Source: Hydractinia symbiolongicarpus (taxonomy: Eukaryota > Cnidaria > Hydrozoa > Anthoathecata > Hydractiniidae). Taken from it: a stretch of DNA of 64,000 bases. Positions 3,401-63,886 of the stretch are shown one piece after another (the first letter of the stretch is position 1; every line of letters starts with the position of its first letter). The notes under the pieces were generated by a model that made no database searches, was not told the DNA's origin, and was given only the letters and a program-made list of their open reading frames with translations. Made by a program: the position numbers and the translations under genes. The stretch is from NCBI RefSeq assembly GCF_029227915.1, contig NC_079882.1, positions 10,912,001 to 10,976,000 of the forward strand, given 5' to 3'.

Positions 3401-6400
3401 GGGTTCCATTTAATAAATCTAAAAACATAAGTTGCATGAGTCTTAGCTTGGCAATTCATGTGTTTTTATATAATTATCAATATTCTCTACTAATAAGGGC
3501 AGGTTTATTGTACAAGTTCCCAAGGGTTCACATGGCACTATATATTCTTAAACCTTTTTTTATATAAGAAACAGAAATATAAGAATCAAGATTAGTGTCC
3601 TGTCTCCTTATGGAGTATTTTGCAGTTAAAAGACATGTTTTATTTGTCATTTCTTTGTCATTATCTTTGTCCAGTTAATTTTTTAAACATTTCAGACAAT
3701 TCATTGGAATTGAAAAGGGTAACGTAACAAAATAATTTTTAGCCTCATAAAAAAATAATGTTTTCATGACCACCAGTACTATGACATTTCCTTTTTTTAC
3801 GCAGTTGACCCAAGAGGAAATTCAGGTTTTAAAAGAATGCAGAGTCAACAGTTTATATTACCGAGGTAAAGATATATATATATATTTGTGATTTGCAAAT
3901 ATTTTTCAGCATTGCTGTTTACAAAATATATTTTGAAGACTTTTTATTCAGGTATTCCAGCAGGTATATTTTCCGTCATTGTTGCCAGAGGTGCAGTAAA
4001 AAGTGGTGAGTTCATTATGCTATACCGTTAATCCTTGAGTTCTTCCTTTTTTTAATTTTTGGCGAAAGTACAGGATAATACTTTTTTTATAAAACATAAC
4101 GTTTTTTCATATTCAGACAGAGAGGAGGATTTTTAAGCATATGCTAAGCATATTGCCCAATCTTGTTGAATCCTTCTTATGTGTTTTTTTTTGTGTTATG
4201 AGTATTTTAATTGGGCACATGTATTTCTTATTCCTTATACACAATAAAACTTAATTAAAACCACTATACTGTGTAAACTTGCTTTGTAAAACTGTACCTT
4301 TAGTTTTGTCGCTCCTCATTCAAATGTAAAAGCGGGACCATATTGTATTATTCCATAAGTTTTTCGGTTTTTAATTTGTTTTTGCAATAAGCATAACCTA
4401 AGTATACTCTAAGCCTGTTTGTGTTTTTCCCGGAAGCATATTTCAGCCTGAATTTGAATTTTCACATGCTTATAAAAACATGTATTTTCAGTTCTTTTTA
4501 ATCAAAAGATAAAATTAGGGAATTTAATTGGAATTATATTTCGTTGGTACACATATGCTCTTGATTAGTTTGAAACGTTTTTACCAGTAATCAGTTTGTA
4601 TACTCTACAAACTTGTCAAATTTCATGACTTAGACATAATATTTTCGCGATATTTGTTCTGCAGGCACTTTAAGTCCCTGCCCCGTCCAGGGGGTTACAC
4701 CAGGCAAAAGAGACTGGTTCCAATAAAACTGAGAAGTGTTAGCAATTTCTTGTCTTCTCTCCGTTTAGGTTACTTTCCCAGACTTCAACGATGGTCGGGG
4801 GCGTTTTATGCAGGTGAGTAAACTCGTGTGTGTTTAAAATCATTACATTTTCTAGTTAACAGCTTTTTTTGTTACATCATTTTAGGCATGTTTGGTTTAG
4901 GCATGTTTTCAGGAGTGGCATCTTACAGAGATGAATGTTTTCGAAAGATTATGAGTTTGGAGAATTCGGTACTTGCCGAACAGTTTCGAAATTTTCAGAG
5001 GGAGTATGATTTGTTAATTGTTTGTTTGTTTGTTTGTTTTTTAAACATTATTTTATTGATTTTAATGTGTACTAGCAACTGTATTTGTTTTTAGACATGG
5101 TTTACCTGTCAATCAGTCTCCAAAATCAGGTAAAGCTGTTTTACTTTGACTTTTCATGAAAAATTGTAGATTGGGAACAGTTCTAATATATCAAAATATT
5201 TGTTTTGATTGGTTTTACTTCCCATATTATAAAAGTAAATAAAATGTCACGTGTCGTGTTACTCAATTTATGTAATATAAAAGAACTACGAGCCAGGTCA
5301 AACCTGTAAAACGTTTATTCTAATCAATGTACTACAGAGAATCTTATAGGGTAATTGCTTTGAAATGTGTGACATAGCTACCTTGATTGGTTCAATCACC
5401 ATAAAAATAAACCCAGAGAAGTAAAGAATACTGGACATTTTTACCACCAGTAAATTTTATCATTCCTTGCTTATAACCGAGAATAAATTTTAACATTTTT
5501 AAAAAAATAAAATTGTTATTTTTGCTTTATAATGTAATTACCGAAACTGAAATCGAAATTTCTTTGTCTTCGTTTGACGTTTATTTTGTTTCACATTCCT
5601 CCAAAAGAAAGAAATGTGATACAGTCCTTAGCAAGTTCATGTTAATTTGGCATTTTACCCCTTCCTCCCTCCCTCCCCCTCTCCTCCCCCTCTCCTATTA
5701 ATTTTTGCTAATAAAGTATATTATATTATATTTTATTATATTGTTTAGAATTTACCGAAGCTAGTCAACACAGCGAGATAAGTGATACAACATCTACAAG
5801 CGACGTCGATTCTCTTCTAATGAAACGAATGCAAGACCAAGGTAAATGGGCTGAATTGCGACAAGCCTCAAGGCAGTCTCACATTCCAACAAAATCAAGT
5901 GAGAAAGGTTTATCTTATGAGGAACTGCGGCTGCGAAATCGTTCAAAACGACAAGGAGAGACAGAGAACCATGTGTTAGATAAGGTGAGATTTGTGATAC
6001 TTTAAAAAGCAGAAGTATTTGTATGGGCATTGTAAGCAGGTTAATTTGTAAATGTCCCTTCCCCTGTGAAAAAGTTAACAAATTCGACTTTTAACAATTT
6101 GACAGACAAGGTTTGTGAAGTTCCTTTAAGCTTCTCGAACAAAGCAGTTTTAAATTCAATTTTTTTCTTTAATGTTTTAGACTCGAGCGATGGATTTTGA
6201 AAGCTTTACGTCGTCAAATTTCAACGACAATAAATCAGCACTGGACTTTTCCAAAGATGACGAAATAAAAACATCTCTCTTTACGCCAGATACGAACTCG
6301 AGTTACGAAAATAAAAAACCTCCTGTTGATAGCAAGCAACGTAAAACATACGCGCAAGGTGACCATTTTAAATTCCAGTTTTTATTTTCAACGCCTCTTG

Positions 6401-7888: not shown

Positions 7889-8437
7889 TTAAATATAAAA
7901 TATAGCTACGATCACCAACCCTACCGACCGAGATGCTTCGGGTGATCCGTACGTCCTGTCTCCGTGGTGTTGTACAAACATCTCCTGTTTCGTGCAGTAT
8001 ACTGCACAAACTTGTGCAAACGTTGTGCACTGGCGCGTGTAATTCCAAACAAACGGGATGCCATTTCTACCATACATGTTTTCGTTTGGTGTTGCGTTTA
8101 AGATATCGTTGAACGGGTTTGAATGGGGGTTTGCTTTATTTAGGTTTGGGGAGCTGACGCCATTGGTGAAATATCCAGGGATCTGGACAAACGTTGTGCA
8201 CTGGCGCGTGTAATTTCAAACAAACGGGATGCCATTTCTACCATACATGTTTTCGTTTGGTGCTGCGTTTAAGATATCGTTGAACGGGTTTGAATGGGGG
8301 TTTGCTTTATTTAGGTTTGGGGAGCTGACGCCATTGGTGAAATATCCAGGGATCTGGACATATTTGTATGGATTAGGAGGTATGGGTACGAGGTGTATCA
8401 ATTGAGTTTGGACGTTACCTTGTAACAGTTGCTTCAT
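7889..8437 (-). pseudogene. Unidentified minus-strand reading with an in-frame 57-codon duplication
   Basis: From an ATG at 8437 the minus frame reads PNPYKYVQIPGYFTNGVSSP and continues to a TGA near 8217. Past that stop, the same frame repeats the 57-residue block and continues to about 7889 with several Cys (QVCAVYC). The two copies lie exactly 171 bp (57 codons) apart, so the frame is kept. They differ at a TGG-to-TGA change that makes the stop in the upstream copy. The residue bias (N, P, Y, G) does not look random. I do not recognise a family. It could be a broken gene or a coding exon with an acquired stop. Confidence 0.35.
8018..8360. repeat. 171-bp tandem duplication (two near-identical copies)
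   Basis: Copy 1 is about 8018-8188 and copy 2 about 8189-8360. The period is fixed by GATCTGGACA at 8180 and 8351 and by CGTTGTGCA at 8021 and 8192. Only a few substitutions separate them, so the duplication is recent. 171 is a multiple of three. Confidence 0.92.
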
Positions 8438-8830
8438 AAAATCAGTTTAGTAATTTACTCATTTGTGACCACATGGGAGTGTGAGAAGCCAATCAACTTT
8501 CCTGGTTTCTATAGTCGTGTTATGAAGTGCCATTAAGAGAGAAACGACAACTGACAACCTCGTTATTACGTTTGTTAAGATGAGGAGGAAGTTTTGCTAT
8601 GATAAATGACTTCATTCATTGTGTTCTTGATAAGTAACGAATAACCAAAGCAGCGTCAAACAAAGGAGCATGGGGGACTTGCTCTGCAGGTTCACATGCT
8701 AATCTATCTCCCTCCCTTCCCACAATTTACGTCGAAATGTTGAATTACATGCATAAAAGTTAATTCTTAACTTGTCTTAACCATGACTTTCTTTTTCTCT
8801 CATTTTTAATAATTAAAACACGCGTTGCAG

Positions 8831-9298: not shown

Positions 9299-9304
9299 TA
9301 TAAA
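9299..9304 (+). promoter_or_regulatory. TATA box of the AmiD-like gene
   Basis: TATAAA lies 67 bp before the chosen ATG, which leaves room for a start site near 9330 and a 5' leader of about 40 nt. It supports independent eukaryotic transcription of the intronless gene downstream. Confidence 0.55.
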
Positions 9305-9370
9305 TGGCCGCAGTCTCACGCACTTTTACTATTCGTGGTAAGGATTCTCTCTCACACTTTGCTTAGCAAC

Positions 9371-10168
9371 ATGAAGGTTTTAGTGGTTTTATGTTTGTTC
9401 GTTGTGTGCAGTGAAAGTAAGAAAACGAAGATGTACGAAATCAGTGACGAATACAAAGCTAAAAGCTATAACAACAGACAACGCTTCTTGGTATTGCATT
9501 ACACTGCTGCTAATTTGCAAAGATCTTTAAATATCCTCACCGGGGATAGAGTGAGCTCACATTATGTCGTTCCAGAAGGTCCCATAGATGGTAAAAGAAA
9601 GATATACCGATTGGTGCCAGAAGAGCGACGTGCGTACACCCAAGGAGTAAGTTTTTGGCGTGGGCGGAATAATTTGAATGATCAAGGCGTTAGTCTGGAG
9701 ATTGTTAATTTAGGATTTGAAGACAAAAAAGATGGCGGGCGCCATTGGTTCAAGTTTGCACCATATCAAATTGACTCTGTCATTCAGATAAGTAAAGATA
9801 TTATAAAACGTTATGACATTGAAGCAACAAATGTTTTTGGGCATGGGGATTGTGCACCTGGAAGAAAGGTAGATCCTGGCCCATTGTTTCCATGGAAACA
9901 GTTGTACGAGAACGGCGTCGGAGCTTGGCCCGATGACAGTGACGTCCAGTGCTTTATGCGCTCTTTAAATGACAATGTAGATGTGAAAGAATTTCAAGAA
10001 GGTTTGGCGAAATACGGTTACAAGGTCAACACAGATGGAGTTATTACTGCCGAAACTCGAAACGTCGTTATCGCCTTTCAAATGCATTTTCGGCAAACGA
10101 AGTTTGACGGCGTGATAGATAAGGAATCGATGGCGATTTTGAAAGCTCTTCTTAAAAAATACCGATGA
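9371..10168 (+). CDS. Bacterial-type AmiD N-acetylmuramoyl-L-alanine amidase, secreted, intronless
   Basis: A 265-aa uninterrupted frame. It should hydrolyse the amide bond between N-acetylmuramic acid and L-alanine in peptidoglycan. Residues 1-16 (MKVLVVLCLFVVCSES) form a secretion signal. An Amidase_2 domain spans about 35-195, and a C-terminal PG_binding_1 domain spans about 200-260. Zinc ligands by comparison with E. coli AmiD are H43 (LVLHYTAA), H158 (FGHGDCAP) and D168 (KVDPGPLFPW), with catalytic Glu E110 (VSLEIVN). All are present. Domain order and the block GPLFPWKQL...GVGAWPDD match proteobacterial AmiD far better than animal PGRPs. No introns are present, unlike every other cellular gene here. 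C13 is not in a good lipobox, so the lipoprotein anchor of AmiD seems replaced by plain secretion. Likely horizontal transfer with an antibacterial or microbiome-control role (inference). The frame is open upstream to 9335, but the only ATG is at 9371. Confidence 0.95.
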   Translation: MKVLVVLCLFVVCSESKKTKMYEISDEYKAKSYNNRQRFLVLHYTAANLQRSLNILTGDRVSSHYVVPEGPIDGKRKIYRLVPEERRAYTQGVSFWRGRNNLNDQGVSLEIVNLGFEDKKDGGRHWFKFAPYQIDSVIQISKDIIKRYDIEATNVFGHGDCAPGRKVDPGPLFPWKQLYENGVGAWPDDSDVQCFMRSLNDNVDVKEFQEGLAKYGYKVNTDGVITAETRNVVIAFQMHFRQTKFDGVIDKESMAILKALLKKYR

Positions 10169-12796
10169 ACTTTAAACTAAACAACATTGCGTTTCACAAA
10201 TTTTTTTTTTAAGCTTGATTTAAGATTTTGTTGTTGTTATATTTGGATTCAATACAGCTAACTTATTGTGTGTAAAAATTTTAACTACTGCAGACAGTCC
10301 TGTTTTGCCACAGTTAAATGGTTCTTAACATTTTTGACTACTCTTGATCAGACCTTGATCAGACCAGGCATCAAATATAAGATATTTATTTCATTGCTGT
10401 ATGATTTTGAAAATTTAAGACTTTAGCTTTTAAAATAATTTTTTTCTCTGTTTAAAAAAACTGACAGCTTTTGCGTGTTTGCTATAATTAACCCAAATAA
10501 AATCCGGATTTTTTAAATTCTTTAAAAAGTTGCATTGAATCTGTTCTCTGTTCATTGTCCATTTACAGTAGAAGACCAAGCCTGATATTTCTTTTTACCC
10601 GGAAATCGATGAGAGTAAGTTGAGAGAAATCATCAAGGAAAGTTTAGTTGAATAGGATATCTTATCGGATAAAAATTGTGGGACGCAATATTCGTCACCT
10701 TCAACAAAAAATAGTGAGACAGTATAGAAATTTTGAATTTCGACGCTACAAGTAATTATATTGGATATTTCTAGGATCATGCAATTTGACCTTGTGCAAC
10801 AGGTCAATGTTCACGGTGGATCTTGATTAGATTCAAACTCCTAAAATGTGGTAATTGTTCCTGGAGGGGGTCAAATTAGGGGTCCTTTGTCGCGTCAGGC
10901 GTATAATGTTTTATACGGCAGAAGTGTTACAAAGTGTGACTGACCTAACACATCTGCAAATGACGCACTTCGCGACATTTTTGCTAAATTCGTCAAACGC
11001 CCAAAAAAGTTTCATTGTGTCACAGTTTCTGTGTGAGGTGGGGTGTGTAGATGAAACTTTCTTCCATTTTTTCAAGTTCCTTTATGAATATTCACAATAA
11101 ATTATGCATAAAAATCTGCTATTACGTCAATTCGCAGCTTCCGTACTATAAATCAACTGCTTCGCTAATATATAGTGCCTTTCTATAATTCCTAATATCG
11201 ACCATTTGTAGTTACGTTATCGTTAAGCGTGAATGAAAAATATTTGGGGAGAGCTCAGCCCCCTCCCCGAATACTTTTTTAAAGAATGAGTTTTAAAAAA
11301 ACATCAAATATAGTAAAGATTGTTCTCGCTTTAAAACACATCCAAATTTACTGGTTTTGTTTTGGATATAATTTCCAATGGCAACATTTTTGTAGAAAAT
11401 ATTAATGAGTACCAAACAAATTTCTACCTGTTTAATTTTGCTCGTGTTGCCAATTCCGCTTCATGCTAGTGTCTTCTTCAAGTGAGTGGCTTCCGCCTCA
11501 TGTGCAAAGTGAGTGCTATTCGTCTTATGCATGAAATAGTATTGACTGAGGGCGAATTTTGTTTACATGTATCAGTCTCGAGGTGGTTTCTATATTACTC
11601 ATATTTTTTTTATTTAGTTATTATCTTACATTATCTTTCAACTTTAATTGTATTTGTCAATTCAATCCATTAGGGGAAGAAAGTGTTTGCGGAAGAAATT
11701 TTTGAGGTTCAGCTTTACCGCAAAGTTTTTTGTTTTTTTCGGGGGAAAACATTCGTGGTTCTACAAAAATGCTCACCTATTTTCAAATAGTTTTTATACA
11801 TATTGTCTTATAGAAGGAATAGAATGGAATATTTTGTCTTATAGAAGGAAATTTCTTAAACACGCATCTCTTATTGACATATTTGGCGGGAAAATTTTTG
11901 ACGGTTCACGACTGGCTTTACTTTTGGCGGGAATAAACTTTTTCATTTAATGTTTCTTGATGTACATTTTCGAGCAAGTAATTTTACATCGTAAAATACA
12001 ACCTAAACAAAGTGAACCATGTTTTGTAGATATATTTTGCACCAGCAACTCGGAGATATTTAAAAATCACCTTCACCTTTTTTGACATAAATATAGCAGT
12101 TTTGTTTGTTGTTTAAGAATATTTGTAAAGATGAATTGCCGTTATATTGTATACTGCACGACAATACTCTCGTGCCTACTCGTGCAATAAATTTTAACGC
12201 GACACAAAGCAAATGCGCGGGAAAAAAATTCGATAAGCAACAAGTTCAGCATTGGTTAAATTAATATAAAAAAACGTGTCAATAATAACGGTTTTAAGGT
12301 AATATGGTAAATTGCAGCGCTTTTTTGCTACTATTTTCTGCTTAAACTTACGCTTTTTTACAAGTTATATTGAAAAGCAGCATGAAACTCGAACCCTTTG
12401 AAAAACAAAGCATCAGCTAAACAACAGTCAGCTGTGACTTAGTAAAAGCAAACAAAAATAGACAAACAACAGAGATTATAAAAACAACAATAGTTTCCAA
12501 GGCATCCTGTTTAACAAATTATGTAAGTTTGATGCAAAAAATGATGAAAATTTAAGTTTAATTTTGATCAGCGCTGTATTCTATCTGAGCAAGCAATCAT
12601 GTGGGTTTCAAAGTAGATATACAACAAACAACATGTGAACAATAGTTCAAGCATGACAAAGAGAGGGAAAAAATTTAAGCAGCCTAATGTTGTTGATATA
12701 AAAAGTCGTGTATTTCACGTGCAAATCCAAGTATCTTATCCAGAAACTTAAAAAGATAATTAAAATTCCTAAATTATTTGTTTGTTTACTTTCAGC
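10169..12796. other. Gene-poor intergenic stretch
   Basis: I see no supportable gene. Near 11690-11940, scattered GCGGGAA/ATTTTTG motifs look like fragments of a degenerate interspersed repeat. Open frames at 10855 and 11648 lack motifs and have low-complexity composition. Confidence 0.4.
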
Positions 12797-14199: not shown

Positions 14200-19091
<4,892 letters not shown>

Positions 19092-32560: not shown

Positions 32561-34336
32561 TCAGTTGAGTTGAAGAAAGAAATACATACCGTCGCGTGGC
32601 TGCTCAGCATGACATTTGTAATTCATTTGCTCTTCAACAGACATGGAGAAAAAGTCGACGTCTTCATCATCATCAAGGTTAGAATCAGTGATAACCGCCG
32701 ATTGTTTTAAAACAGTCGGTATGATTGTAGTGGATGGCGGTCGTCCAAACACTAGCTCATACGGAGTACATCCTGTAGCGCTAAGTTGTTGTGTGTTGAT
32801 GGCATCTGTTGAAAAAGTGGAAAATATAATCAAGTACTGACAGTTCGACCTGCATTTCAGAACTATTGTTGTCAACTTACAACATATTTGTGGCAACCAC
32901 GAGCTCCATGGTTTGGTGTCACTGGGACACTCAGCCATCATGACCGATATGCTATGTTCCACATTAATAAGAGCTTGTTCAATCATGCCTTGACTCTGTG
33001 GATGGCGAGGACGACCACGAACCACCTGAATCTCCCCCGGCCAAGCTTCGATAATATGATCTATTGATTTACTTACAAATTCTGAACCGTTATCAGAATG
33101 AAAGATCTTTGGCGGTCCAAACAATGAAAATATTTTTTCCAACTCAACTGCAATTGGAGCGCTTTCCTTTTTCTCCAGGGCAGCAAGAAAATTAAATCTC
33201 GACCAATGATCAATGGAATGAAGGATATATTTATAGTCTCCATCAGGCATATGACTCATGTCTATTAAATCAACCTAAAAATGCAAAAAGTGTAATGGTA
33301 TCAAACAGGGACATGCAAATGTTTGAAAAATATTAAACTAAACATATGTAAATCCTATAAGCATTTGATGTCGAGGCAAATAAAATTTTTCTTTAATATA
33401 AACTTATCATCTCAGTTTGAAAAAATTTTTTTTCCAAAAGTCAAGACAATTTTAAGAAAATCATGAGGCTCCGGATGAAAAATCAAGCACATTTTACATG
33501 AAAAATTAAAGAGCATTTTGTTATTTTACTTCATGTGGCTTTCAGTCTCTTAGGTATAACATGTATGCAGGTATACAGTGTATGCAAAATTACTTGGAGG
33601 CGTTTCATGAAGCCATTTGATATAATGGCCTTGATGGGCGGTACAGTCTTCTGTGGCTTTTTTAAGTGGCAAGTTTCACAAAGATTGATATACTCTTCAA
33701 TAGCCGATCTTGGGATACCCCAAAATGAACTTGCAACCTGAGTAGGAGAAAGAAGAATTGAGTAATTATTTGTATCAATCTTTATATTTTGTCTAGGGTA
33801 CAATTTTTTATGTAAATATATATTCATGCTTAATTAATTCTTCTAAGAGTAGAAAGCACTAAATACCTTTTTGTAGGTCTTTTTCACACCAGCGTGATTT
33901 AATTCATTACAGTGAACTGAGTGTATGATGTCAAAGAATTCATCTACGTATGCCACTCTTAAGTAACCTTCAGGTATCAATTGATTACCTGTATTGTTTT
34001 TCTGAAAAAAGAAACAGTTATATATAGTAATTATAGAGATTATTGAACATCGAACTAAAAATTTGATATCACAATTTTTTTACTTACAGCTTGTTTTGAA
34101 GGTACAATCAAAATATCCACCATTCCCAGCTCTTTGCAGTTTATAAGCTTAAACTTCTTGATAAATAACCTGAATCGACGTGCTTCTGCACCCTTGTTAC
34201 TGTCTGGCTCTTCACTTTTTAAGTACTGGGAAATTTTCTTCCCCAACTCTCTTGTTATTGTGCCACTTGTTGGTCTTTTTCCAGTGGCTGTGTAACGCTG
34301 GGCAAATTGTTCAAATTTTTGGCGATGACCTTCCAT
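32561..34336 (-). CDS. KRBA2-like integrase (rve) gene, spliced and frame-intact
   Basis: Minus-strand exons 34088-34336, 33867-34001, 33594-33737, 32881-33274 and 32590-32805 join in phase to about 379 aa. The end is then either read-through to a stop at 32561 or a spliced stop near 32367. Domains: a short N-terminal helical region; an HHCC-type zinc module split across exons 2-3 (HCNELNHAG, then CETCHLKK); and an integrase catalytic core with the DDE triad in HSIDHWSRF, HSDNGSEF and QSQGMIEQ, then YELVFGRPP. It resembles the KRBA2/SCAND3 class of host genes derived from mobile-element integrase. No reverse transcriptase, gag or long terminal repeats are visible. Either a domesticated gene or a young DNA-transposon-type element. 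Biochemical activity is possible because all three acidic residues are present. Confidence 0.85.
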
Positions 34337-43500: not shown

Positions 43501-46500
43501 TAACCCTTGGAAAACTGGTTAAACACATAAAAAGTGCTTTAAATTTGCTTTGACATACTCTATACTGTTACCACCAAGGTTCATTGCTAAACAATGGATT
43601 AAATCAATCAAGTCTAAGGGTTTCTCTCTTAAATTTGATTCTGGTTTTTATCAACTATCTGCAAAGCTCTTCTTTTTCTTGGCTTAGGAATAAACTGCCT
43701 TGACTTAGACTTAACTTGCCATCTTCGGAACTAGCTGTAAATGTCCTCTGGTTGATAAGATCTTTTTTTGACCCAGATGCATGACACTTTGCATGTGTTT
43801 TTACTTGAGATAACCCACTGTTGTCAATTTTAAATGCTTTAACACAAATTTTACAATAAGCTGAAAATTTATCATTTTTAACTAAACTGAGCCAAGGTTA
43901 GCTTTTCCTCACTCTGGAGGGTGTTTAATTAATCACTATTGTAATAACTAACCTTAAAAAAAGTTGCTCTACTCTCTTCTCAACTTAAATAATTGCTACA
44001 AACTCTGGGAAATGTCATAAGAATAATAAATGCTGAGTAAAGAGCAAATAAAAGTTTGGAGAACACGTACAGAAATTATGATTTTTTATGCCAACAAATC
44101 AATTTCATGCTAATTTTATGATTTTTGAAAAAAATTGCTCATTTTATGATTTTTATGATTTTATGCTAGTTGGGACCCCTGTATATATCACTGTATAACA
44201 ATTTGTGAAATGTCTATTTGGCTATAGAGATCGCGAAAAGCGGCAACAAACCTGCAATAAGCTGTTTTACATTTGATTGTTCTGAGCCAAGTCCAAGTAT
44301 AGGAGCAATATGTGCAAGTGAGAATTGCTCAATAAATGATGTTCCGTTTTTTCGGAAATACCACCATTCAAATAACTAAAAAAAGGATTAAAATCATCTT
44401 TGTTTATAATTATGTATCATTGGAAACCATTAATTTAAGCATGCTTCCTTGAATAAATGCATTTTTATTGTTTAAAAACAAACAGATACATACCAAAGCA
44501 AAACCAGATAGAAAGGAGTAAGTTCCAGTCAATGCAACGAAAAATTTAGGTGTAAGTGTTGAGAGAACAATTCCAGCTAAAATAAAATATCAAGAAATTT
44601 ACCAGCTTGCTTGAACTTCATTATAAAGGTAGTTTGTCTGTCAACTTTCTATCTTTATCACATAATGTTTACACAAAATTAATTTCCTGTCGCATTATCT
44701 TGCAATCAAATCTAATAATTGGATGTTCTGGTTAAAATTTTTCATGAATTGCTTGCCCCCTTCTTCCAACTCTCCTTGATCAGGCGCCTCCTGATATTCT
44801 TCTGTTATATAGCTATGAAAGAAAATAGTAACCCTAGTCTCCATGAGCTCCTCTACCACATTTGGTTGTACCGAAAGGTTTTACTAAAATAATTAAGCCT
44901 TTCATCATGGTGCCAAGGTTGGAACATCTTAGATACATGCTAGACTGAAGTAAAACATCACAACCCATAAACTTACATGATATGACATACAAAAATGATG
45001 TTTTACACACTTTCTCTATACAATTCTAACAATATTTGTCCTTTGTTTGAAAATTAATTTAATATTTCTATATGGATCTGTCCAATAATTTTTTTTAAGT
45101 TTTCCTAATGACCCCTGCTTTTGAGCATTAAAAACTGATATATTATGTTAAAGGGACTGTCCGGTAAAAAAATAAGTTTTATTATATCAACTAATATGTA
45201 CTTATTACTAAAGAATATCTGCATCTTTTAAAACATAATATATTAATACGCTTATGTAAGTTGTTTTCTTTTTTTCAATTCCCTCGTGAAGCATCACCTT
45301 TGGATCGCCATTTTGTTTGAATAATTCAGCATGAATGAGAGGCTAAACACACATGTTTCCCCTGACGTAGCACAATGGTGAGAAAATCAAAACAAAACGC
45401 GCTAGCCCGTTAAAGGATAGACCGGAACAAAAAATCTTATTGACTTATTTTATTTTCGTTTATTATTTTTTAAGTCAGTTAATACCCCCGTGTAGCATAT
45501 ATTCGGAAATGTGTTATAAATAATTTATCAGATTTCACAGGTTCTGTTATTATTCGCTAAAGGCGCTTCGCTGAAGATAAAATTTAAAGATCAAAATGTA
45601 AAAGAGGCCGCTTCAGCGCGACATTACGCAATTTCCCCTCGAAAGCAAACTAAATAACATTTTTGTTTCTTTTTGTGAAACAACTCTGAACGGAGAAAGG
45701 TCGAAAAACTTGCTGTTAGTATGGCCTACTGTTCGGCGTACGGTTGTAAAAACAACATTTAGTCAAACAAAGATAAAAGCTTCTTTCTAATGCCTAAGAA
45801 TCCTGAAGTTAGCAAAGCCTGGATTGCCGCAATTAACAGAACAAAGCTGCCAGCTAAAGTATTTCTATGCTCTGACCATTTTGAAGAAACCTGCTTTGAC
45901 CCAAGCTGGAAACTTCAGAATGAATTATTTTATAAAGATCGTCCTTGCAAACGGCGGTTGATTCCAAATTCTGTGCCGACAATTTTTTGTCATAAGACTG
46001 CCCCTAAGGAACGTACATCCTCCACATCGCGAGCCAAACGAAGTCAATCTAAAGACGTAAGCAAATCTGTTTTTTTTATAAGAATGTTAATGTTGAAAAT
46101 TATTCTTAATTTCCTCGTATTTTGCTATTGGTATTGACAAAGCCTTGAATGTTCCTAACATTTCTCGAGTATATCATCTTCGTTCCCATTCCTTTTTATT
46201 ACTTCGTTCGATCGTTATTAGTTGGTGAAGTCAGCCTTGGTTGAAGATTCTGAGCAATTATGTTTAATCGATAATGAAGTTGAAGTTGAAGTTGAATCCA
46301 AATTATCAATTGGAATACAGGCCATACCAAAAACACAAAGGAGTGCAACCCAATATAAAGATACGTCAGTACGAAGTACATGTACACAAACGTCGTGTTC
46401 TGTAGCAGATGCGCAAACGCAAACCCAAGTAGCTGTTGTACATGCTTCTTATCAAACTGAAAATGAAACGGACACAGATAACGGTATGGCTTTCGACTTT

Positions 46501-49500
46501 ATTTCATTTTCATGCTTAACCGAAGTGGCAAATTATTTTGTAATTTTTAAGAATGTATATGTTTTCAGATTCAAATTGTACTGATTCCTCATTTAATTCC
46601 GATTTGGATGACGTGAACCTATAAAGCGCAGCAGCAGCTCTGAACAGTACATTCAATATCCTACACAAAGGTAAATATTTTCTTATACTTGCACGAATTT
46701 ACAATGAAAAAATTATTAATGAAGGAACTGTTTATATCGTTTTTCTTCATTTAATACTTCAGGTAATATAAGCAACACATTGGAAATGCTGGGATTGTCG
46801 AATTTAATTGAACCACCAACTTCTGAATTTTCACACGAGGGACACGATTTGGACAAGGACGTAATTTCCGATGGCGACAATGAGAGTGAGGATGATGAAT
46901 GGCTAGTCAAATCTCTTGAGAGGTAACAAAACAAAAATAAATTTCCAACCACTTCCATAAAGTTGTATTTATGAATCTATTTTTTGCATATTCCTTATTT
47001 CAGGGCTGATAAAAGTGACCCTAATTATTCAATTAGTCAAGAGATGGATGAAGGAGAAGACGAAGAACAAGAACAAGAACGTATTGAACATCGAAACATG
47101 GAGCCATGCAAGCAAAAAACTTACTTGGTGTACGAAACATGTATCAAAGGGCTGATTAAGTATTGCATAAAGTGTGGTTCCATCATAGACAGTGAAAGCA
47201 TCAGCAAAGTTAAGAATACTGGCAGTCAGCTAACGTACAAGATACAGTGTGTAAAAGGTTAAGTAAAACATTTATTGTTCGATTCTGAAAAATAGCCTGT
47301 AGCTCCCTCCTAGGTTCTAATTTAATTGTTGAATTTTAGGTTGTAACTACAACTGGTCTGGTCAACCGAAACTAAATTGCACCAAAGGAGCTGGTAATTT
47401 ACACTTACCCGCTGCTATTGAACTAGCTGGAATAACATTTAACAAAATGTTAAAATTTGCAAACATATTAAACTTGCAATTCATTTCCAAAACCATGTAC
47501 TACGAGCATCGTGGCAACTTTGTTTACCCAGAGGTAGATCATGCTTGGCGAAAAGAAAAACAGATACTGTCACGTGAAATTACAAATGAAAATCGGCAGC
47601 TAGAACTTGCCGTTGACGGTCAATGTGATACACCTGGTCACAACGCCACCTACAGTACCGTATCGGCGATGGACTGCCAGACAAACAAAATATTAAATTT
47701 CAGCATAGTACACGTGAAGGTAAATTTGTTTACGTTTGAGTGTTCCTAAATATATATTTCTATCTTATCGGCTTTTAACTTCTTCTTACATTTAGGAGGT
47801 AACCAGCTCACAAGCAATGGAAAAAGAAGGTTTTATCAGATGTATCTAAGAACTTCAAGAAGACATGGAACTTCCAATACGTGTGATTTCCACTGATAGG
47901 CATCCCTCCATAAAGAAGCTAATGAGGACCGACCCAAGATTTACAAAAATTATTCATCAGTTCGATCCTTGGCACATTGGGAAGGGACTCGTTAAAAAGT
48001 TAATAAAGGCTTCAAAAAAGAAAGGTATGTTACTTTTGTTGAAGAGTGATTAAGATCTCAATGTGCGGATTTTATTAAATTATTTCTTCATAGACTTAAA
48101 CATACTTGCAAGCTGGGCACCTGCAATGGTCAACCACCTGTACTGGTCAATCCATAATTGTAATGGTAGTGGAAAAGAGTTAGTTGAAAGATTTACGTCG
48201 ATAATTCACCACTCTGTCAACTGACATACCTTTACCCACAACAAGACATACAAAGCTTGCGACCATCCAAGATTAAATGAGGAAGAGACAGAAAGAAAAA
48301 AGTGGCTTGTGATGGGTTCTGAAGCTCACAACAAATTTGTTAAAATTGTGACACAGCCTTGCCTTGTAAAAGATCTTGAAAAGCTTACGGAGCAAATCAA
48401 CACTACCCTCTTGGAAGTTTTTCATTCACTGAAAATTAGGTACTTGCCAAAGTCAACCTTTTTTAAAATGGAAAAGATGCTCGCTGGTACCCAACTCGCT
48501 ATTTTAGATCACAACCACAACATCAACAGAGAACAGGTATATAAAACATTGCAAATTTTATGTTTTTGATATTAAATATGCAATATTTTGTATGTGCTCT
48601 GATAATCTTTAGAAACACTCAGTTAACGAAGAAGGAATTCGGAAACCACTTTTCAAAGTCGCGTATTCCAAACCGATCAAAAGATTTGTATCCAAAATTG
48701 TGAAAGTTGATAAGGATTATGGCTACTTACACTATATCCTGCAAAAAATAATGAACGCGCCGAAAGTAAAAAAAAAGTTTCAGAAAGAAATCGGATGAAA
48801 CGCCAACTGTCTTTAAAGATTACTCCCGATGACAGGCCACCTCGCGAAGAAATTATCGAAAAATCGACCAAATATAAACGTATAAAATTGTAAATATAAA
48901 ATTTCTAATACACGTTTTTAATTTTTAAGCAATCCAATGAATACTTCTTTTAACGTTTCCTAAATTTGCACAAAAAAATCTATTACTATGTTTCCTAAAA
49001 AACAGATTCTTATACGAAAAAAATGTGTATGACTTTTGTAAATATGTACAAGTAGTGTATATAATAACTATTCGTCTTCTATCTCCGCTATCCAAGGAAA
49101 ATCCATTTCAACCAGTTCTCCCCCTTCTGTGTCACCCTTAAACCCAGTGTATCGTCCATCTACACTAGGATACTCCTCCCTGATCTTACAAACTGCACAC
49201 GCTGGTATGACACGTCGTACACCTCGCCCAAGTTTGTTGTGGATAAACCAGCAAAACTGTCGATAAGCACCATAACGGTACGTCCCAAAATTTTTAGCAA
49301 AATAAGTTAAGTCAATCGTCGAATTTTTAGTAACGCGGGAGAGATTAAATAGATTACCTATTTGGTACATGGTCACGCTCAGGTAAACCGCAACTTTCCC
49401 GGTCATATAGCGCGACTAACGCTGTCCATAACACATCTTTCAACAACACGATGTAGTTAAAATGTGGATGCTGTGTGATGCATTCCTGATCTTAAAATAA

Positions 49501-62800: not shown

Positions 62801-63886
62801 CAAAGCCAAAAACAAAAAGAATATATATTTTTCTACAATATAGTTCAGTTGCCTCCTGCGTAAAATAAAATAGTAAGTGTGTAAATTTATTGTACTTAAA
62901 CATATTTTTGCCCTTCAACTGCGTACTACTATATCGTTAAAACATGTTGTAACCATAAAAATATTACCCCTATCTGTTTAGTTACTGTCATTAAATAATG
63001 TGGATGTCTTGAACAAGCAAGTTTATTCTAGACTACATTTTGACACTTATAGCCAAAACAGCAAACTCTACGCAGTGCACAGGCAAAGAAATTTTGTTAC
63101 TTAACTTTTTCAAATTTTTTTCCTCATTTTTATATTTTAAGGTCGCTTGCACTTTTAAAATTATCAAGGCTCTGAGCTGATGAGTTATTACAAACCATAA
63201 AAATCTGTCGTGCAGTTCTGCTCACTTGCCATGCAGATTTTGAGGTGTGTAGGGCCACACACCCACATTACGTTTATAAAAGAGGGAAGCAATCTTTTTG
63301 CTTTAGCACCATTTTTTATTGCTTTTATTTAGGTTTTGAGGTTGACATGCCATTACAATCTGGATGGACTTCATTAATGTATGCTGCTAATAATGGATTT
63401 GTAGAAGCTGTTGAATTGCTTCTAAAACACAAAGCATCTCCAAATTATCAATATGGTAAAGTTAAAATAATAAAAAATAATAAAAACGGAGTGGAATCGG
63501 CTTGTAATCATAGCGTTACAGGTTTGAGTCTCCGCACTGGCACACTGTAACTGTAGTGTCAGCCTATTTGGTGCCATATACTGATCAAGCTAGAGCAATG
63601 TTATATGTCTGGCGGTAATGTAACATAGTTATATTTCAGAAGGGGAGGAAGAGCAAGCCATTAGGATAGGCATTCCCAAGGACAATAAAACTTCTGTTAC
63701 TTGCTTATTTTAAAGCTAAATCATATTTTAATTTCCTGGTGGTATAATGTGTGCTATTATTGTTTCTTCAGATTTATTTACACCTGTTATGGCTGTATGT
63801 GTATCAACTAATAGAAATGAAGATCAGTTGGTCAGTTGTATCAAGATACTGATAGATTTTGGAGCAAAAATAAATGTTCATGACCG
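56892..63886 (+). CDS. ASZ1: ASZ1/GASZ-like ankyrin-repeat protein (5' part, runs off the window)
   Basis: Coding exons 56892-57004, 58464-58645 (two later in-frame acceptors, at 58491 and 58524, are possible), 63333-63455 and 63772-63886 are joined in phase. The N-terminus is acidic (GGDSDDDFNYQDYEDVPYDN), like ASZ1. The first ankyrin-type helix is IVKSAIMKGDVDKLKNVLDQG. A strong repeat GWTSLMYAANNGFVEAVELL follows. The third piece, LFTPVMAVCVSTNRNEDQ...CIKILIDFGAKINV, matches the ASZ1-specific insertion pattern between repeats. The SAM and basic regions lie beyond the edge. ASZ1 acts at mitochondria and nuage in piRNA biogenesis in germ cells. Another ankyrin protein cannot be excluded, but adjacency to ST7 as in vertebrates supports ASZ1. 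Confidence 0.72.
57005..58463 (+). other. ASZ1-like intron 1
   Basis: AT-rich. Repeated phrases such as CTTTCTGGAAGAAGGA and a block of similar 60-80-bp segments at 57590-58010 (GAGAAAAC, CCTACAAAGCT, CTGTATTT) suggest a highly diverged tandem repeat. No gene. Confidence 0.5.
59008..62274. mobile_element. Possible 3.3-kb inverted-repeat element in ASZ1-like intron 2
   Basis: The left end TAAGGGGCATTTG and the inverted right end TTAGGGCCATTTG are followed on both arms by similar AATTTAATT/AATTCAAAAT-rich sequence. The interior holds a younger MITE (59722) and a minus-strand open frame (61732-62079) that might be a transposase scrap. Target duplication is not clear. Confidence 0.35.
59722..60535. 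mobile_element. 814-bp MITE with TA target duplication
   Basis: CCGTATTTTCTGGTATATAA at the left and the inverted CTGTATTTTCCGGTATATAA at the right, flanked by TA. Internal ATAACCCGCA motifs recur near both ends. No coding content. The TA target suggests a Tc1/mariner relationship. Confidence 0.8.
63488..63700 (+). mobile_element. tRNA-derived SINE (family B) copy
   Basis: The plus strand carries CAGGTTTGAGTCTCCGC (B-box-like) followed by GTGTCAGCCTATTTGGTGCC, the same layout as the copies at 20404 and 28210. It is in ASZ1-like intron 3. Confidence 0.55.

Follow-up and report, generated by a model that had tools for sequence, protein, structure and literature searches.

To our knowledge, bacterial enzymes are rarely kept by animals. 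One case is on record from an aphid: the AmiD of Acyrthosiphon pisum (ACYPI006531) is reported to be of rickettsial origin, to be raised in bacteriocytes, to have a gene with an intron, and to fall in a clade with Orientia and Amoebophilus, and a distant AmiD/AmpD relative is reported for Trichoplax (PMC2829048). D. citri is reported to have its own amiD (PMC9116674), and the transfer of genes into Hydra has in itself already been published (PMC3531485). The gene described here lies at positions 9371-10168, forward strand, of a 64,000-nt stretch of contig NC_079882.1 from the hydrozoan Hydractinia symbiolongicarpus; this whole stretch is called the window. Judged by its domains, residues, and similarity, its product is an AmiD-type amidase. 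With a probability of roughly 0.85, amiD was acquired by an ancestor of the animal group that includes Hydra and was kept as an intact nuclear gene, the product of which is probably a secreted, wall-degrading amidase. The data show the intact frame, the domains, the catalytic positions, the fold prediction, an intron-bearing neighbor, and a clade shared with a Hydra protein. The gene represents a new and probably independent example of a type of transfer that is already known; a title and abstract search of the open-licence literature, in which "AmiD" is blurred by the word "amid," found no paper on a bacterially derived AmiD in cnidarians.

The gene and its flanking signals comprise the following features.

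9371..10168, forward strand: AmiD-type amidase gene, one open frame of 265 codons (265 amino acids) plus stop
9371..9427, forward strand: signal-peptide-like N-terminus without a lipobox, about residues 1-19, with low model confidence there
9473..9883, forward strand: Amidase_2 catalytic domain (Pfam, residues 35-171, 2.2e-20)
9635..9646, forward strand: clade signature Y-T-Q-G, residues 89-92 (alignment)
9980..10141, forward strand: PG_binding_1 domain (Pfam, residues 204-257, 1.7e-10)
9299..9306, forward strand: possible TATA box, TATAAATG
10496..10501, forward strand: possible polyadenylation signal AATAAA (sequence)

The open reading frame listing of the window showed the gene to be intact and without a coding intron, in agreement with the uninterrupted frame of the initial annotation. 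The mechanical start of the frame is a GTG at 9335; the database protein P0001, from a 2398-base contig that is possibly a transcript, starts at the same Met as 9371. Both Pfam domains scored well over the curated cut-offs and stood in the AmiD order that had been proposed, Amidase_2 followed by a C-terminal PG_binding_1. NCBIfam gave matches below the cut-off only (best AmpD, 66.6 bits vs. a cut-off of 143), and the PHROGs matches were to endolysin families, the strongest of them (1.4e-37) spanning residues 27-264. Similarity to AmiD was near full-length in sequence and in predicted fold: Escherichia coli AmiD (PDB 2bh7, 3d2y, and 3d2z) matched across residues 21-264, with 44% identity on the model, and has the two-domain layout and the zinc and catalytic positions in common with the Hydractinia protein. 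The two differ in that the Hydractinia protein has a secretory-like start and no lipobox, and has Thr for His at position 90 and Gln for Thr at position 105. Pseudomonas aeruginosa AmpDh2 also differs in having His at position 90 (pairwise alignment); neither AmpDh2 nor AmpDh3 was among the rows of the trees described below.

A single-sequence protein search returned 5695 proteins at E < 0.001. Twenty relatives that group with the window protein held ranks 1-18, 20, and 23 among the 120 matches listed, and P0019, P0021, and P0022 ranked amid them. This group of 21 was chosen by eye from the alignment, before any tree and partly by residues near position 90. A profile built from its members gave 36 new proteins among the 120 matches listed, and scored the 20 members at 400-464 bits and the next protein at 376. 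One member, P0018, is a Hydra vulgaris protein labeled AmiD in the database, on a contig of 86,977,266 bases; it has the same layout, Thr at 90, and Gln at 91, but is 52-53% identical to the Hydractinia protein and has Asn rather than Gln at 105. In the careful 55-row tree (21 clade members, 4 sisters, and 30 others, hand-chosen from a pool of 156 amidase proteins plus 80 genome loci), all 21 members fell into one clade (98/94), which the sisters P0019, P0022, P0026, and P0041 joined at 99/88. A quick 80-row tree, containing three of the sisters (P0041 was outside it), was concordant, with values of 91 and 94. Of the capture first proposed, the bacterial origin, the AmiD type, and the residence in an animal genome are supported, but the gene is not private to this genome, its clade including the Hydra vulgaris protein.

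Residues were counted in an alignment of 236 rows (the window protein, 156 proteins, and 79 genome loci, one of the 80 being absent), which also served for the lipobox and masking counts. The expected zinc and catalytic columns were occupied by H43, E110, H158, K166, and D168, as the initial annotation had claimed, and all five residues were invariant across the 21 clade members. E110 (Glu) and K166 (Lys) are presumably catalytic. The zinc ligands are H43, H158, and D168 (His, His, and Asp). The roles of this zinc triad are those given in PMC2829048. At position 90, Thr was present in all 21 clade members and, among the 215 others, only in the four sisters, the remainder having His (209) or Asp (2); at position 105, the clade had Gln (19) or Asn (2), and among the others Asn was found in 9 and Gln in none. 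The way in which the group was chosen accounts for part of its uniformity at positions 90 and 105. A Cys at position 161 (9851-9853), adjoining the conserved Asp160, was observed in 16 of the 21; the 215 others had Ile, Val, or Ala.

A strongly hydrophobic N-terminal stretch was found in 19 of the 21 clade members, the exceptions being P0015, with a short N-terminus, and P0020, with none. The signal peptide of the initial annotation therefore stands as a hydrophobic, secretion-like start, a call that is based on hydrophobicity and not on a signal-peptide predictor or a computed cleavage site. To judge from this start, the amidase is most likely secreted. A simple pattern detected a lipobox in none of the 21 clade members, in none of the 4 sisters, and, among 132 other database proteins, in 36. 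Because the lipobox cysteine was lacking throughout the clade, the protein can be called AmiD-type but is no lipoprotein in the sense of E. coli AmiD. Absence of the lipobox was thus confirmed, whereas its loss within the animal, as previously suggested, was not supported by the sisters and the other proteins; it may have been absent already in the donor.

The surrounding DNA is eukaryotic nuclear genome. A LONRF gene (RING, TPR, and LON substrate-binding domains) lies four kb downstream of the amidase gene, on the same strand, in three coding exons.

14200..15845, forward strand: LONRF coding exon 1 (RING, TPR), exon end set by eye from the sequence
17584..17780, forward strand: LONRF coding exon 2 (LON substrate-binding domain; Pfam and P0121 match)
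18610..19091, forward strand: LONRF coding exon 3, stop included (Pfam and P0121 match)

The exon junctions are GT-AG, and exons 2 and 3 were delimited according to the best-matching model (219 of the last 259 residues vs. 158 and 160). The protein P0121 (774 amino acids, contig of 2498 bases) matched LONRF in three pieces (91, 100, and 95%) that cover 4.9 kb of the window; P0121 therefore comes from a spliced product. The amidase gene thus sits beside an intron-bearing eukaryotic gene. Neighbors split into many exons, as the initial annotation had them, were found only in part: the one neighbor checked bears introns, but has three coding exons.

Together with the AmiD matches and the Hydra clade, the LONRF gene supports the claim of a bacterial AmiD-type gene in an animal genome. 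One alternative is that a symbiont gene was wrongly joined to animal DNA by contamination or misassembly. The bacterial family of the protein, and a GC content and CpG ratio unlike those of the single neighbor compared, would fit such an artifact, but a relative lies on the 87-Mb Hydra vulgaris contig, the window contains no ambiguous bases (N), the lipobox is absent, and none of 23 other window frames tested with Pfam matched a bacterial family above the cut-off (about 72 further frames of at least 75 amino acids were left out of this test). We therefore regard an artifact as very improbable. A divergent animal peptidoglycan recognition protein (PGRP) converged on the AmiD layout is extremely unlikely. 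Amidase PGRPs (PGRP-LB and EsPGRP2) are of the same fold class and would catalyze the same reaction, but they gave no sequence match and a far lower structural score, so that the likeness is one of fold alone. Among the 10 matches of the clade profile to PDB sequences up to E = 10, six were AmiD, AmpDh, or AmpD sequences at 1.2e-17 or better and none was a PGRP, although PDB includes PGRPs. The third zinc ligand is Cys in amidase PGRPs, whereas it is Asp here, as in AmiD. We know of no PGRP with a PG_binding_1 domain, which is present in this protein. Both alternatives had been raised by the initial annotation and are now disfavored.

Two further explanations were considered. That one bacterial lineage passed the gene to different animals on several occasions, in place of one ancestral transfer, would be compatible with some inner branches of the clade being open and with a species being assigned for 1 of its 20 relatives; the recovery of the 21 as one clade and the features of its own that it carries (Gln or Asn at 105 in all, Cys at 161 in most) make this unlikely. 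That the protein is no longer an enzyme, and acts as a peptidoglycan-binding receptor or structural protein, is suggested by the Thr at position 90 but is rather improbable, given that none of the 21 has lost a zinc or catalytic residue. A wider version is less likely than not. In it, an early cnidarian (at least a hydrozoan) took amiD from a bacterium whose relatives already had the Thr, and the enzyme, its catalytic domain altered, has since served in place of PGRPs as the main secreted amidase acting on peptidoglycan; this version is slightly weakened because the Thr-bearing sisters may not be bacterial and their union with the clade disappears when the masked amidase domain is used by itself. 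Several observations also weigh against a single ancestral acquisition of an active amidase. Masking of the six signature columns left the clade at 89 and lowered its union with the sisters to 67; when the masked alignment was restricted to the amidase domain, the clade was again recovered at 89 but the sister union was not. The single clade is therefore fairly sturdy and the sister relation weak. The four sisters may be bacterial or animal; the 19 members other than the window protein and P0018 are presumably animal; and a neighbor gene was inspected for one clade member, that of the window. The amidase gene has 41% GC vs. 32% in LONRF exon 1 and a CpG ratio of 1.18 vs. 0.62, a comparison with one neighbor. 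Because 209 of 215 other sequences have His at position 90, the clade Thr may reflect a different substrate or activity.

Two candidate donors were considered. For Rickettsia/Tisiphia as the nearest kin, a union of the 21 with three such rows was rejected by the approximately unbiased test (p-AU 0.007), Orientia and the aphid gene being outside the tree. As to a phage donor, 12 phage-collection records matched, and 4 of them, Escherichia or Salmonella records, covered at least 80% of the query; the identity of these 4, 43-46%, fell below the range of 47-55% found for bacterial-type proteins. In viral contigs, the single query gave four pattern-matching stretches, none of which encoded a relative; with the alignment as query, among 80 kept of 162 relatives, the top-scoring one was 43% identical and one partial match 48%. 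The scan of genome contigs gave at least 571 relatives, of which 80 were kept; these were not the 80 nearest. Like the aphid gene, that of Hydractinia is probably a bacterial amiD moved into an animal genome, and has kept the zinc triad and the C-terminal tail, but the aphid gene reportedly has an intron and a rickettsial donor, whereas the Hydractinia gene has no coding intron and the union of its clade with the three Rickettsia/Tisiphia rows was rejected.

Under the preferred reading of one ancestral acquisition, transfer would have run from bacterium to animal: a bacterial amiD would have passed into the germ line of an animal ancestral to the group that includes Hydra, and would have persisted in the nuclear genome with its frame intact and its coding sequence free of introns. 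Acting on peptidoglycan or on pieces of it, the zinc-dependent amidase domain would cleave the linkage of N-acetylmuramic acid to L-alanine, and the C-terminal PG_binding_1 domain would anchor the enzyme on the wall. Outside cells, the amidase could then degrade or detoxify bacterial wall material, as catalytic PGRPs do in other animals. The direction of transfer, secretion, activity, substrate, tissue, and biological role, including the muramyl amidase activity and the symbiont control proposed in the initial annotation, are inferred; a role in handling bacteria is likely. According to a review, amidase PGRPs of flies and squid clear fragments of peptidoglycan, Nematostella has no PGRPs, and Hydra is a host-microbe model that can be kept germ-free (PMC7308585). 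A wall-cutting amidase long kept in relatives of Hydra would offer a route to testing the use of a captured bacterial enzyme in animals that may lack PGRPs, and would allow comparison with the separate capture in aphids.

The motif TATAAAWR was observed 73 times in the window vs. 45.7 expected; the TATA box called eukaryotic-style in the initial annotation is present at 9299-9306 but is therefore weak evidence. The stretch 9341-9374 is pyrimidine-rich, ends in TTAG four bases ahead of the ATG, and resembles a 3′ splice site, so a noncoding first exon or spliced-leader addition is possible. A 171-base unit is repeated head to tail at 8017-8358, roughly 1 kb before the start of the gene, its two copies being 98-99% identical; two neighboring minus-strand open frames at 7892-8215 and 8219-8446 lie over this repeat and have no Pfam match. 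Farther upstream, 4822-5091 gave a weak OCIA-domain match (0.0052, below the Pfam cut-off), suggestive only and perhaps an exon of an OCIAD gene. Elsewhere in the window, a retroelement integrase core (rve, 4.8e-10) with a weak H2C2 match was found on the minus strand at 32561-33259 and 33534-33833, a THAP domain (2.5e-12) with a weak Mutator-like transposase match below the cut-off at 45763-46134 and 47333-47746, and ankyrin repeats (3.5e-14) close to the window end at 63176-63547.
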